In this document: in pieces, positions 3,036 to 43,072 of the stretch | How the letters are laid out: the number at the start of each line of letters is the position of its first letter | How positions within the stretch are numbered: the first letter of the stretch is position 1 | IMG/VR virus record: IMGVR_UViG_3300020034_000036 | Span: 1-43,072 of that record | Source of the DNA: a virus | Length of the DNA: 43,072 nt | Reading direction: 5' to 3' (one strand) | Notes under the pieces: model-generated | The model's database searches: none | Seen by the model: the letters and a program-made list of their open reading frames with translations, nothing else | Told to the model about the DNA's origin: nothing | Made by a program: the position numbers and the translations under genes

Positions 3036-3824
3036 CTATCTGTTTACGTTAATAAACGGAGTCGTCTGACCTAACATGGTCTGCGGTAGAACGCCATTCC
3101 AGCGTTTAACAGCCTCCCAATCCACTAACCTCTGATTCTCAGCTAAAGCAGCAGACTGGATACGGATAGACTCCGCATCAGCTTTCGCTGTCTCTATTTT
3201 TTGCTGAGCCTGAAACTTAACCTGCTCCAGCTTATTCTTTTCAGCTAAAGCATCTTGTTCAGCCTGAGCCTTTCGCTCAATAGCTTTGTTGAACTCCGGG
3301 GAAAAATCAACGTTAACAATAGATACGTCATCTAAGATTAAGTATCTGGTTGCCAAGCGTGTACCCAACGAAGCATCCAACGTAGCCTTCAAACCGGCAC
3401 GTTTGGTGAGCAACTCCTCAGCAGTATTCTGAGCGGTCGCCGCCTTAACGGTTTCATTAATAGCAGGGGTGACAATTTTGTCTACCAACGCCTGCATATC
3501 ACCGATCTCCTGAAATGCCTTATCAATCTTTGAAGAATCGATGTGCCATGTAACAGCTACCCGTGTCGAAACTGACTGCAAGTCCTTAGACGCAGCAGAA
3601 GAATCGATCTCGGTCTTTTGTGTCTGAACAGACATGTGTGTAACCTCCTCTGAGAATGGATTTCTGGTATGAGTACCCTCACCCAAAATTCTCAGCTGAC
3701 CGTTCCAATTGTTGTATACAACACCACGCTCTCCGGCATCAACCGTAACCCATGGTGACATCATCAACGCAACGATAAAAATGATAAAAAATATAACGAT
3801 TGCAATAATAATTTTTATTCTAAT
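3036..3824 (-). CDS. Prohibitin/stomatin (SPFH)-like membrane protein, apparent AUU start
   Basis: A 262-aa SPFH-domain protein. An N-terminal TM segment (IIIAIVIFFIIFIVALMM, about 5-22) is followed by an SPFH domain (VDAGERGVVYNNWNG ... VNVDFSPEFNKAIERK) and a coiled-coil tail rich in A, E, Q and K. This is the prohibitin arrangement: membrane-anchored, ring-forming scaffolds that in bacteria associate with FtsH-type proteases. The TM part is in frame but has no ATG, GTG or TTG before it. A strong AGGAGG (3836-3831) lies 6 nt before ATT at 3824, so an AUU start (as in infC) is the best reading. ATA at 3818 or the TTG/ATG near 3767 are alternatives. Prohibitins are known in some phages; the role here is unknown, possibly membrane or protease modulation. 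Confidence 0.85.
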   Translation of the reverse strand: MRIKIIIAIVIFFIIFIVALMMSPWVTVDAGERGVVYNNWNGQLRILGEGTHTRNPFSEEVTHMSVQTQKTEIDSSAASKDLQSVSTRVAVTWHIDSSKIDKAFQEIGDMQALVDKIVTPAINETVKAATAQNTAEELLTKRAGLKATLDASLGTRLATRYLILDDVSIVNVDFSPEFNKAIERKAQAEQDALAEKNKLEQVKFQAQQKIETAKADAESIRIQSAALAENQRLVDWEAVKRWNGVLPQTMLGQTTPFINVNR

Positions 3825-3835
3825 TCACCCCCTCC

Positions 3836-3952
3836 TCAAGCTCTTCTTCCTTTATTAGCCAGCTCCGGGTAACGGCTAAGAAACTTATCTAATTTAACTG
3901 GGTCGGTAGCTCGCGAGAATGCACGCAAAGCTCGTTTTTGATTTTCAAACAT
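3836..3952 (-). CDS. Small basic protein directly after a tRNA-like RNA
   Basis: A 38-aa ORF (MFENQKRALR ... ANKGRRA) with an amphipathic, basic composition. Its ATG begins 3 nt after the discriminator base of the tRNA-like element (3956), with no Shine-Dalgarno other than one inside the RNA. Its stop codon is immediately followed by the AGGAGG of the prohibitin-like gene, so the two are likely coupled. No family is recognised. Confidence 0.55.
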   Translation of the reverse strand: MFENQKRALRAFSRATDPVKLDKFLSRYPELANKGRRA

Positions 3953-3955
3953 AGG

Positions 3956-4058
3956 CGGAGAGGGTACGATTTGAACGTACGTCCCAGGGTACAACCTGGA
4001 AAGCTAAATCCCAAATGAGAAGGATCAAGCCTGCAATAAACCACTATGCGACCTCTCC
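3956..4058 (-). tRNA. tRNA-like element, class II with expanded anticodon arm
   Basis: Minus strand: a 7-bp acceptor (GGAGAGG/CCTCTCC), D-stem GCA/TGC with a GTGGTTTAT-type loop, a long variable arm (CCAGG/CCTGG), T-stem GTACG/CGTAC with loop TTCAAAT, then G-CC-T in place of NCCA. The variable arm suggests a Ser/Leu-like tRNA. The anticodon arm is about 14 nt too long: a stem AGGCT/AGCTT encloses about 21 nt with an inner GATCC/GGATT hairpin, so no anticodon can be assigned. It may be a tRNA with an anticodon-loop insertion, a decayed tRNA, or a tRNA mimic used as an RNA-processing site. The ATG of a 38-aa gene follows at once. Confidence 0.6.
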
Positions 4059-10922: not shown

Positions 10923-12206
10923 TTAAATATTGGGATCAAAATCAGTGAGTCGGGCTGGAGATGACTCCAATGAAGCGGATGGGATAGCAAGCGCAATCTG
11001 TTCAGCAGTACCTTTTAAAACATAAAATGGAATTTTCTTTCGGCCAACTAACCGCTCCTCCTCAATAACTAGAATATGCTTCTCGGCCATATCAGTAATA
11101 TATCGTTGAATCGAGCGGAGCGTAATACTAGAAGTAGCAGTCATCACTGCATCACGAGCCACCCACAAATTAAAAACGTCGGTCGTAGACAAAGGTGTAC
11201 CCGATTCCTGAAATATCTCAATAACTCTCCCAAGCCGGGCTGACTTAGAAACCTCCGACGGCAACCCTAAGGTCTTGTATTTGCCATCAGGTTGCAACTC
11301 AATAACCACAGCAGGTATTACATCCTCAAACCGGCCGTAAGCTTTTAAGACACGCTGGGTAAGTGCACCGTCATCCTTACGGGTAAACTCAATAATATTG
11401 TCCACAAAGCCTGTGAGAGCCCCGGAACCACGGGAAGCCTGAGCTTGATCGCCACCACCCTTTCGGAAGTGGTGAACCAAGAGAACAGCAATATCGTTTT
11501 CAGTAAAATGGTAGAGGGGAATAAGAGCTCGCATCATTTGAGTAGAATCGTTTTCGTTATCCAACGACCAGAAGGTAGACAGCGTATCGATAACAACCAG
11601 GTCAATCTTCTCGTCCTTGCAACGCTGGGCTACCTCAGCCAGAAACTCACCCCATTGTTTAACAGAAGGCTTAACTCGAATAGGCCGAGCCCAAACTAAG
11701 ATAGGATCGGTAACAACCGGATCAAGTGATTCTTTCTTGTCAGCCCATTCCCCGGCAGCCTCCTCCGATATAACCAGGACACGGGAAGGATAGGTAGGCT
11801 GACCAGCAAACTCCTCACCTGACTGCATAGCCACGAATAGCGCTCGAAGCAGCGTAGATTTACCGGCTTTCCATAAAGCAGACAGCAAGGTGATGTAACC
11901 CTTAGCCACATAGTTCTCCCAAATCCAAGCCTTCTTATTTGCCTCCTCTGAGATGAGTGACCACGAGATAGGATCACCAATAAGGAAGGACGGTTCTGAA
12001 GGCTTTTTAAGCCTCTCGAAGGTAGCAGCACGCTCCTCAGGAGTCTGCTCCAACTCAGCCAGCTTCTCCTTGTAAAAAGCAGTGTTCTGTTCTTCAATCT
12101 TATTTAGGCGTGTTTCAAAGTCATCATCAGGAGAGACAGTAGGATGCTCTTTTAAGAATTCTTCGGTGGATTTTTCAAGTTCGTCAATTTCATTTTCTAA
12201 ACTCAT
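10923..12206 (-). CDS. RecA/RepA-type replicative ATPase (helicase-like)
   Basis: A 427-aa protein with a RecA-fold core of the AAA_25/RepA type. The P-loop variant SALWKAGKST lies at 109-118, Walker B LVVID at 203-207, and LLVHHFRKGGG at 242-252 carries the HH typical of phage RepA-like hexameric helicases. An acidic N-terminal helix precedes the core and a winged-helix-like C terminus follows (ITLRSIQRYITDMAEKHILV). The likely role is replicative helicase or loader acting with the ssDNA-binding protein upstream. The first glycine of the canonical P-loop is replaced. The ATG overlaps the 58-aa gene stop. Confidence 0.85.
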   Translation of the reverse strand: MSLENEIDELEKSTEEFLKEHPTVSPDDDFETRLNKIEEQNTAFYKEKLAELEQTPEERAATFERLKKPSEPSFLIGDPISWSLISEEANKKAWIWENYVAKGYITLLSALWKAGKSTLLRALFVAMQSGEEFAGQPTYPSRVLVISEEAAGEWADKKESLDPVVTDPILVWARPIRVKPSVKQWGEFLAEVAQRCKDEKIDLVVIDTLSTFWSLDNENDSTQMMRALIPLYHFTENDIAVLLVHHFRKGGGDQAQASRGSGALTGFVDNIIEFTRKDDGALTQRVLKAYGRFEDVIPAVVIELQPDGKYKTLGLPSEVSKSARLGRVIEIFQESGTPLSTTDVFNLWVARDAVMTATSSITLRSIQRYITDMAEKHILVIEEERLVGRKKIPFYVLKGTAEQIALAIPSASLESSPARLTDFDPNI

Positions 12207-12379
12207 AATAAGGTCTGCTGAATAACATCAGGCACTGACTCAAACCAGTCAGGATTCCTATCTACAATAAACAATGGAATGGTATATTCGTCAACTCCTA
12301 TAGCGATATTCTCTCCCACAACAGGAGCAACATAGCCAACAGGGTAATCAAAAAACGGTTTCCTTAAACGGTATTTCAT
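12203..12379 (-). CDS. Small protein directly after a tRNA-like RNA
   Basis: A 58-aa protein (MKYRLRKPFFDYPVGYVAPVV...), beta-rich and aromatic. The ATG starts one nucleotide after the discriminator base of the tRNA-like element (12381), with no Shine-Dalgarno outside that RNA. Its stop overlaps the ATPase ATG (ATGA), so it likely feeds ribosomes into that gene. No family is recognised. Confidence 0.65.
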   Translation of the reverse strand: MKYRLRKPFFDYPVGYVAPVVGENIAIGVDEYTIPLFIVDRNPDWFESVPDVIQQTLL

Positions 12380-12380
12380 G

Positions 12381-12449
12381 TGGAGATGCTGAGAGTCGAA
12401 CTCAGATCGTTGATACTAGCAAGCTAGTACAACCGTACCCGTCATCCCC
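12381..12449 (-). tRNA. tRNA-like element lacking a canonical D-arm
   Basis: Minus strand: acceptor GGGGATG/CATCTCC (7 bp, one G-U), T-stem CTGAG/CTCAG with loop TTCGACT, discriminator A. In place of separate D and anticodon arms there is one long hairpin, GTTG-TACTA [GCTTGC] TAGTA-T-CAAC, joined by ACGGGTACG. Total 69 nt. No 7-nt anticodon loop with U33 fits. The T-arm and acceptor match tRNA expectations too well for chance, but decoding ability is doubtful; it may be a decayed tRNA or a tRNA mimic cut by RNase P/Z. Confidence 0.6.
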
Positions 12450-12452
12450 AGC

Positions 12453-12477
12453 TTGGGCTCCCTGCTCAAGAGCCCAA
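12453..12477 (-). ncRNA. Stable hairpin just upstream of the tRNA-like RNA
   Basis: A perfect 8-bp stem, TTGGGCTC/GAGCCCAA, with a 9-nt loop, 3 nt before the tRNA-like acceptor and 12 bp after the stop of the ssDNA-binding gene. No U-tract follows, so it is probably part of one structured processing region and not a terminator. Confidence 0.5.
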
Positions 12478-12489
12478 ACCGTCGCAGCC

Positions 12490-13023
12490 CTAGAACGTTA
12501 TATCATCTAGCTGCTTATCTGACAAACCCTCGGAAGCGAACGGATCGCCGCCATCAAAAAGTAACTCCATATTAGGAAGCGTCTTAGTAGCTTCCACTAC
12601 ATCCGCCTCAAGCGGTGCCTTAGGCTTGGGAGAAGTGCGGTACTTGGTGGACATTTTGTCCGTACCCACACGCTCAACCTCTATATCGTACTCAAGAAGC
12701 GAGCCCCAGTCCTTATCTTTGTCATACGCTTTTAACTCCTTTTGAATAGAAGCCTGCGTAATCTCCCAGATTTGCACCTTCTGTTCGGTGTAATTCCATA
12801 CAGGTAAAGCTAAGAATTTTTTAACATCCTCAGCATGATCCATTGGTACCGGCTCACCATCACGAACTCGGGTCGGCTTGCGACCGCCATCGGGGGTGTT
12901 TTCCCAAAAGACATAGCCTGAAATGGCAGAATCCAAAACCCTTAATCGGTGTTTTCCAGGTGTTATTCGTACATAGTTGGACTTTGAAGCCTGAGGCTCA
13001 AAGTTGTCTGGTATTGCTGACAT
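12490..13023 (-). CDS. Single-stranded DNA-binding protein
   Basis: A 177-aa protein of the phage ssDNA-binding type. The OB-fold region contains YVRITPGKHRLRVLDSAI, ALPVWNYTEQKVQIWEITQ and KELKAYDKDKDWG (about 16-115). The C terminus is acidic and ends LDDITF, resembling the protein-interaction tip (DDIPF) of SSB proteins. It would coat ssDNA and recruit replication partners such as the RecA-like ATPase downstream. The ATG at 13023 has a near-perfect GGGGAGGTGAT; an in-frame upstream start would lie inside the promoter. It is the first gene of the main early transcript. Confidence 0.85.
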   Translation of the reverse strand: MSAIPDNFEPQASKSNYVRITPGKHRLRVLDSAISGYVFWENTPDGGRKPTRVRDGEPVPMDHAEDVKKFLALPVWNYTEQKVQIWEITQASIQKELKAYDKDKDWGSLLEYDIEVERVGTDKMSTKYRTSPKPKAPLEADVVEATKTLPNMELLFDGGDPFASEGLSDKQLDDITF

Positions 13024-13052
13024 TTTTTTATAATCACCTCCCCTTGACCTTA

Positions 13053-13081
13053 TGTATAAACCATTCAAGAAAAACAATCAA
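13053..13081 (-). promoter_or_regulatory. Promoter for the replication operon
   Basis: Minus strand: -35 TTGATT (13081-13076), 17-bp spacer, -10 TATACA (13058-13053), then GGGGAGGTGAT before the ATG. It lies back to back with the plus-strand methylase promoter; the spacer differs from the three TATATATAGAT promoters. Confidence 0.7.
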
Positions 13082-41794: not shown

Positions 41795-42045
41795 AGTTTG
41801 ATAGAGTTTAACTCCCTTTGATTCAGTGAGATGTTATTAGTCACAAAATTCTTAGCCTGCTCAAACCAGTCAGGTACGATCAAGCCAAACCCTTCTAACT
41901 CGTAACCGGCATATTTGGAGAAGTGCCCCTGCAAGGACTCCCATTGTTGTTTATTGCGTGAAACAACATGATACAAAAACTCTCTTTCATTTTTAAGCCG
42001 ATTGAGTTCTGCTTCAGTAATCACAATTTTTCCCATAATTTTCAT
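41791..42045 (-). CDS. Hypothetical protein downstream of the VWA gene
   Basis: An 84-aa protein: a helical start (TEAELNRLKNEREFLYHVVS) and an aromatic middle (YAGYELEGFGLIVPDWFEQA). The ATG overlaps the VWA gene stop by ATGA, so it is translated with the AAA+/VWA pair and could be a third component of that unit. No family is recognised. Confidence 0.6.
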   Translation of the reverse strand: MKIMGKIVITEAELNRLKNEREFLYHVVSRNKQQWESLQGHFSKYAGYELEGFGLIVPDWFEQAKNFVTNNISLNQRELNSIKL

Positions 42046-43072
42046 GCCACCTTAATCCTTAGCTTGTTACGCAACACCCGGGTAATAGCATTAGGTATCT
42101 CCGACACATTGTCCACAATAACCGAGGTAGGATAATACTCTCGAACATTACGGTGTCCACCGATACCAAAGCCAACAACCTCCACTCCGGCAGCCATAGC
42201 ACGCTTAACCTCTGATCTTAAATCATGACGATGAGGATCTTCAGGCGCTGGCTCTCCATCAGATAGAACAAACAACACTCGGCGTGAGCCGTGGTGTAAC
42301 ATCGTGCCAGTAACAGACTTAACAGCCCATCCATCACAGTTCCAACTAGCATCCTCGGTCATGGTATTCCTCATCATTTTCTCATAAGCCTCGTGATGTT
42401 TGGTACCAAACGGTTGATTGATGGTTTTATAATACCTAAGCTGATGATTAAAACCCCAGACACCGTACTGAATATTTAAACGGTTAAGGACATGAGAGAA
42501 CAACACAGCGCCTCTGGCAGCATTAACAACCGACTCGCCACGCATTGAGCCGGACTCATCAACCAACAAACCAAACACATAATCCTTAGACTTAGCTTCG
42601 ATGCGCCGCTGGAATAGTTTAAAATCCCCAGTAGCAAACTTGAACAGCTTACGTTGATAGATCCGTGCACCGGTTCTAAACTTACCCTGAAACTTGTCGA
42701 ACTTATTATCCGTTAAGACACGAGCCAATGTCTTCGTGGCATTAGGGATATAGGTCTTCACATCATGCAACAGGTCAGAGTAGGTGGGGTAATTGATCTT
42801 AGGATTGCCGGACAGCTTTAAACCAATCTTGAGAGGCTCAGGCTCCTGCCAGTCATCCAGCCATTTTTGAACCTTCTCGTCATCATAGATATTACGCAGC
42901 ACATCGTAAACCTCCTGTGAGTTTTCAGTGAAGCGAGCAGCCTCCATATACTTGCCGTATGTAGAAACCTTGTCCATGACATCAGCGTCAGTCTCAAATA
43001 CCTCACCTGTAATATGTGAGTACATCGCAACGGTGAACTTGATGAACTTAGGAACAACTGAACCGGCAGCTG
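42042..43072 (-). CDS. CobT-like HEXXH/VWA protein, C-terminal VWA part
   Basis: This is the 3' part of the gene that starts at 539. Positions 42947-43072 duplicate 14-139. The ATG at 43025 is internal (residue 150) and is not the start. The C-terminal half is a von Willebrand factor A domain. The MIDAS motif D-E-S-G-S lies at full-length residues 305-309 after a hydrophobic strand (VFGLLVDES), with further VWA features in VLFVLSDGEPAP. VWA domains bind Mg2+ and protein partners; the usual partner of this class is a MoxR/CobS AAA+ ATPase, which is encoded directly upstream (543-1745). The next gene overlaps the stop by ATGA. Such pairs are often annotated CobS/CobT in phages although no cobaltochelatase context is present. 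I infer a chaperone or remodelling role with unknown substrate. Confidence 0.88.
   Translation of the reverse strand, partial: AAGSVVPKFIKFTVAMYSHITGEVFETDADVMDKVSTYGKYMEAARFTENSQEVYDVLRNIYDDEKVQKWLDDWQEPEPLKIGLKLSGNPKINYPTYSDLLHDVKTYIPNATKTLARVLTDNKFDKFQGKFRTGARIYQRKLFKFATGDFKLFQRRIEAKSKDYVFGLLVDESGSMRGESVVNAARGAVLFSHVLNRLNIQYGVWGFNHQLRYYKTINQPFGTKHHEAYEKMMRNTMTEDASWNCDGWAVKSVTGTMLHHGSRRVLFVLSDGEPAPEDPHRHDLRSEVKRAMAAGVEVVGFGIGGHRNVREYYPTSVIVDNVSEIPNAITRVLRNKLRIKVA
42947..43072. repeat. Terminal direct repeat, right copy
   Basis: Identical to 14-139. This copy is preceded by coding sequence in frame with the VWA gene, so it shows the genuine junction sequence. Confidence 0.9.

Follow-up and report, generated by a model that had tools for sequence, protein, structure and literature searches.

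The 69 nt tRNA-like RNA on the minus strand of the analysed DNA (the window, a stretch of 43,072 nucleotides from a virus) is very probably a TLD-only ('CDS-less') tmRNA, and this mini-tmRNA belongs to a large phage-borne family with conserved alanine identity. Of the parts of tmRNA, the phage mini-tmRNA retains the acceptor with G3.U70, A73, the T arm and what is left of the D-loop; the tag frame and the pseudoknots are gone.

Anatomy and identity of the mini-tmRNA

The RNA was confirmed by sequence and fold at positions 12449-12381, with A73 at 12381. In minus-strand order it reads GGGGATG-ACGGGTACG-GTTGTACTAGCTTGCTAGTATCAAC-GAT-CTGAG-TTCGACT-CTCAG-CATCTCC-A. The acceptor strands, GGGGATG (12443-12449) and CATCTCC (12382-12388), form a stem of 7 bp in which the third pair is G.U (G3.U70), so that both alanine identity elements, this pair and A73, are carried by the window sequence itself. 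CCA is not encoded, A73 being followed by C-ATG. The D-loop-like segment ACGGGTACG (12434-12442) has A8 and lacks a canonical D stem; cmscan aligns it to 'GAucuGGaUUCG' of tmRNA. Its D-loop, GGGUACG, is degenerate compared with the tmRNA-type GG..UUCGAC and departs from the GGUUUCGAC of the family. A 10 bp hairpin with a 4 nt loop (12409-12433) replaces the anticodon arm of a tRNA or the mRNA-like domain of a tmRNA, and is followed by a T arm of 5 bp with a canonical T loop (CTGAG-TTCGACT-CTCAG, 12389-12405). The fold contains neither D stem nor anticodon loop. It is beyond chance, the z of the minimum free energy being -2.7 for the RNA alone and -3.05 with the upstream hairpin included.

The sole match in a permissive Rfam scan of the entire 43 kb window was RF00023 (tmRNA), which is also the top match for the mini-tmRNA within its clan, a clan that includes tRNA. 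The score of 29.7 bits (E 2.3e-8) is under the gathering score of 47, and the alignment spans the model from first to last position (1-374) with 26 nt replacing 326 model positions. A covariance model, R1, built without the element of the window gave that element 44.1 bits (E 8e-7). Because host tRNA-Ala genes score up to 42 bits with R1, this score alone cannot separate mini-tmRNA from tRNA, whereas the anatomy does, and R1 scores were therefore left out of any mini-tmRNA claim for Patescibacteria chromosomes.

The mini-tmRNA shares G3.U70, A73 and the T arm with tRNA-Ala, but it has no D stem, no anticodon loop and a position 8 other than U. With bacterial tmRNA (RF00023) it has in common the acceptor with G3.U70 and A73, A8, the T arm and the D-loop remnant; it differs in size (69 versus about 360 nt) and in the absence of the mRNA-like domain with its resume codon, of the tag reading frame and of the pseudoknots.

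Two other classifications of 12449-12381 were rejected. An ordinary tRNA disagrees with ARAGORN, which found no tRNA anywhere in the window, and with the lack of a D stem and of a 7 nt anticodon loop. A functional full-length tmRNA would need an mRNA-like domain, including the resume codon and the tag, and all of this is absent.

The family in viral contigs and its alanine identity

Relatives were sought in viral contigs with two patterns. The first consisted of both tmRNA ends at a distance of 28-56 nt, without constraint on the T stem or on one of the acceptor pairs. At least 120 stretches were found, and 116 of 120 were fully paired in the acceptor (7/7) and in the T stem (5/5), where pairing of the T stem by chance alone is expected in 0.7%. 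The six free pairs were paired in 100% of 55 diverse members, with a covariation score of 1.01 as against 0.21 for shuffled sequences and no more than 0.16 when the partners were slid. In the second pattern D-loop, GGA and T-loop were fixed and the acceptor was unconstrained, so the result for the acceptor is not built into the search; it samples members with a canonical D-loop, that of the window being degenerate. Among the matches listed, 118 of 120 had a perfect T stem.

The two scans combined gave at least 189 distinct relatives of the mini-tmRNA. A typical member is 75-80 nt long and comprises the acceptor, the D-loop GG.UUUCGAC, one hairpin, which often holds an inner capping helix, GGAC and the T arm. 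Only three of 102 distinct family sequences among the matches listed were recognised by ARAGORN, all as tRNA-Ala. Inspection by eye removed matches in genome contigs that were interiors of tRNA-Ser (GGGGCTGACTCGAAATCAG...) or ends of full tmRNA (Xanthomonas group). Comparison of the window element and three family members with named phages by blastn gave short T-arm or acceptor pieces only.

G3.U70 is an established determinant of AlaRS. It was present in 94 of the 95 distinct second-scan sequences among the matches listed, the lone exception apparently being a register error, and all 95 had A73 and G-C at pair 1:72. In the same 95 sequences pairs 4, 5 and 6 each vary across five to six pair types. 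Since G3.U70 and A73 are kept while the neighbouring pairs covary freely, the alanine identity is under selection. Independent support is given by the element of the TM7 (Saccharibacteria) phage MG269973, the acceptor of which (GGGCUAG/CUAGUCC) is unlike the GGGG of the family; G3.U70 and A73 are present and CCA is encoded.

In nearly all of 50 records carrying a mini-tmRNA the short element was matched by RF00023, in most cases above the gathering score. A full-length tmRNA was found in two of these records, G057 and the 340 kb G046. None of the 50 yielded a gene for SmpB in a search that detected the control in 10 of 14 genomes, nor did the window; host SmpB is therefore needed. The phage record G046 thus combines a full-length tmRNA with a mini-tmRNA (L045, L248).

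Neighbouring genes, the upstream hairpin and the tRNA-Ser-like RNA

According to the preliminary description the tRNA-like element ends at 12381 and is separated by one base from the ATG at 12379 of a 58-aa gene. These coordinates were confirmed, the spacer being a C at 12380. The reading frame (12203-12379, minus strand) has a codon score of 0.32, compared with a median of 0.38 in frame and a 95th percentile of -0.13 out of frame, and overlaps the helicase gene by ATGA. Because of the coding-like score and the overlap with the helicase start it is probably a real gene; its protein has no relative in Pfam, PHROG or the viral contigs. The helicase, of the AAA_25 (RecA-like) replicative type (10923-12206, minus strand; PF13481, E 5e-22), has no relatives in the viral contigs and was not found in 24 related records in a search without positive control. 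Upstream of the mini-tmRNA lies a gene for a single-strand DNA-binding-protein-like (SSB-like) protein (12490-13077, minus strand; phrog_14578, E 2e-6).

The 3' ends of ssrA are common attachment sites, and 27 bp pieces of this kind are present in cultured phages, as would be expected if the RNA were a piece of host ssrA left at a phage attachment site. Such an origin is extremely improbable here: the mini-tmRNA is located within a replication operon, the family members have the two TLD halves, which pair with each other and covary, and no integrase was found among the window proteins scanned.

Directly 5' of the mini-tmRNA is a 13 bp hairpin, GGGCTC/GAGCCC (12450-12480, minus strand), with a folding energy of -20.3 kcal/mol and z -2.5. 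It is not a typical terminator because a T run is absent. An upstream hairpin recurs in a subset of the family, with z below -2 in 29% of 102 upstream 45-mers among the matches listed.

The other tRNA-like RNA of the window (3956-4058, minus strand) is of a tRNA-Ser-like type. It has the acceptor GGAGAGG/CCTCTCC, a D arm, an elongated anticodon arm without the normal 7 nt loop, a long variable arm and G73, and folds with z -4.7. A coding-like 38-aa reading frame (3836-3952, minus strand) follows after the 3 nt spacer CCT. A similar elongated element was found in one viral contig (L391:1179-1280). The preliminary description regarded the two loci as instances of one arrangement, which does not hold, as the RNA, the reading frame and the spacer all differ. 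It also placed a GGGCT/AGCCC hairpin upstream of each element; this is strong at 12480-12450 and weak at 4094-4069 (z -0.9).

Among the matches listed, a reading frame of at least 38 codons with ATG 1-4 nt past A73 was found in 2 of the 178 distinct members of the family that had sufficient flank. The other 4 nt bins out to 80 nt past A73 contained 2-8 starts each in the same 178 members. An ATG close to A73 was no commoner than by chance in either sample (9/122 in the first and 13/95 in the second, among the matches listed). A reading frame abutting the RNA is therefore no family feature, and 2/178 is background. Shine-Dalgarno sequences, present before 27 of 55 starts compared with a background of 40%, were uninformative. 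Hairpin, RNA and reading frame could still form a unit in which, for example, the RNA is a leader and its processing yields a leaderless mRNA, as both tRNA-like RNAs of the window abut the ATG of a coding-like frame and cleavage past A73 would give an mRNA beginning with C-AUG. This is very unlikely given the background frequency of abutting frames among the matches listed, the lack of relatives of the 58-aa protein and the different families of the two RNAs. Of the arrangement first proposed, the tRNA-like RNA is genuine and the small reading frame is probably a gene; the unit of all three parts falls away, since relatives (among the matches listed) carry the RNA without an adjacent frame.

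Possible action, known counterparts and host

The TLD-only kind of tmRNA is already known and almost unstudied, and the window element is a fresh member of it. The tmRNA of mycobacteriophage DS6A is listed as 'TLD only' (tmRNA Website id 11587), and strong inhibition of tmRNA is reported for a similar molecule whether or not it can be charged, perhaps via titration of SmpB (PMC4131195 and PMC11915505, which cite Mao 2009). Like the mini-tmRNA, that of DS6A is phage-borne, is scarcely more than a tRNA-like domain and has no tag frame. The window phage differs in coming from an unrelated group, probably one that infects Patescibacteria, and its D-loop appears more derived. The TLD has likewise been kept and the tag frame lost in those mitochondrial tmRNAs of jakobids and oomycetes that lack an mRNA-like region, and in plastid forms of about 65 bp (PMC11915505). 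These organellar forms replace tmRNA itself, whereas the phage forms exist beside a full host tmRNA. In a literature search covering few subscription journals and preprints, DS6A was the only example of a phage TLD-only tmRNA, and nothing describing such a family widespread among phages turned up. Phage TLD-only tmRNAs are apparently far more widespread than reported.

Judged from the sequences, the mini-tmRNA is somewhat more probably than otherwise a charged decoy or inhibitor of host trans-translation. It would be co-transcribed within the ssb-helicase operon, excised by host tRNA-processing enzymes and provided with CCA. Host AlaRS would then charge it with alanine, and host SmpB and EF-Tu would bind the charged form; since the phage provides neither smpB nor a tag, its RNA would depend entirely on the AlaRS, EF-Tu, SmpB and ribosomes of the host. 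Both SmpB and stalled ribosomes would be contested between the complex Ala-TLD.SmpB.EF-Tu and the tmRNA of the host. As the mini-tmRNA supplies no resume codon, the nascent chain would receive no degradation tag, and trans-translation would be inhibited or diverted to the benefit of the phage.

The published inhibition needed no alanylation, yet the family keeps its alanine identity, which plain titration of SmpB does not explain. Conservation of G3.U70 points to the charged form as the one that matters, and a decoy entering stalled ribosomes, or else a minimal rescue, is thus favoured above a bare SmpB sponge. In a minimal rescue, of the kind proposed for mitochondrial tmRNAs that have no mRNA-like region, the charged TLD with SmpB would enter the stalled ribosome and take over the chain, and hydrolysis of ArfB/Pth type would free the ribosome without proteolytic tagging. 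Such a rescue is possible if rather doubtful: the conserved alanine identity suits a role requiring charging, and in mitochondria a tmRNA lacking the tag frame persists alongside SmpB and presumably aids with incomplete mRNAs (PMC11915505), but against it stands the inhibition of tmRNA that a TLD-only molecule caused in E. coli (PMC4131195).

Serine identity is, like that of alanine, independent of the anticodon, which neither AlaRS nor SerRS reads. Together with the presence of a second, serine-type anticodon-less RNA in the same genome, this would fit an alanine carrier or tRNA mimic outside trans-translation, for example an amino-acid donor, a replication primer or a decoy for defences that attack tRNA. 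The D-loop GG.UUUCGAC and the GGAC of the family make this unlikely, being specific to tmRNA, located beside the SmpB site and not needed by AlaRS.

With at least 189 distinct sequences, mostly without tmRNA or smpB alongside, the family makes it a candidate strategy of phages in general to inhibit or reroute trans-translation. The conserved alanine identity offers a sharp test of whether charging matters, and the mini-tmRNA is a compact natural tool for studies of SmpB and stalled ribosomes. More speculatively, a tmRNA mimic that is charged but tag-less may be in very wide use against ribosome rescue among phages of uncultured hosts, as an RNA-only takeover or counter-defence for which, in contrast to a simple SmpB sponge, alanylation is essential; together with it, the serine-type anticodon-less mimic of this phage might form a set of aminoacyl-RNA mimics directed at the stalled ribosome.

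The portal protein of the window has as nearest named phages MW202566 (37% identity) and the TM7 phage MG269973 (28-29%). From the relation of its portal to that of a TM7 phage, the phage is probably of a group infecting Patescibacteria. The full tmRNA of a Patescibacteria MAG has an acceptor, GGGGATG/CATCTCC, identical to that of the window element, and an origin of the mini-tmRNA from the ssrA of such a host is plausible on this sequence identity. Most phages with related structural genes, the complete MW202566 included, are without mini-tmRNA, which is therefore an accessory gene.

Some further RNAs and genes were observed in these genomes. Two odd tRNA-Thr-like genes with G3.U70 in the acceptor and A73 are found in a Patescibacteria MAG (G072; L371:1501-1573 and L385:1501-1571). 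In phages with related portals there is a very stable RNA of about 345 nt (L134:5829-6172, L140:3815-4171, L142:570-940, L130:~1961-2304; z -4.6 and -4.4), with a long covarying closing stem that encloses a T arm like that of permuted tmRNA and an acceptor-like hairpin; Rfam tmRNA_permuted gives it merely 26.5 bits, and the T-arm part is missing from L141. A phage with a related ParB-like gene has a 48 nt anticodon-less tRNA-like RNA (L005:1990-1943, minus strand; GGAG..CTCCG, T arm). The window itself encodes a MoxR/CbbQ-type AAA ATPase and a CobT-like VWA protein (543-1799 and 42042-43025, minus strand) and an SPFH/band-7 protein (3036-3767).
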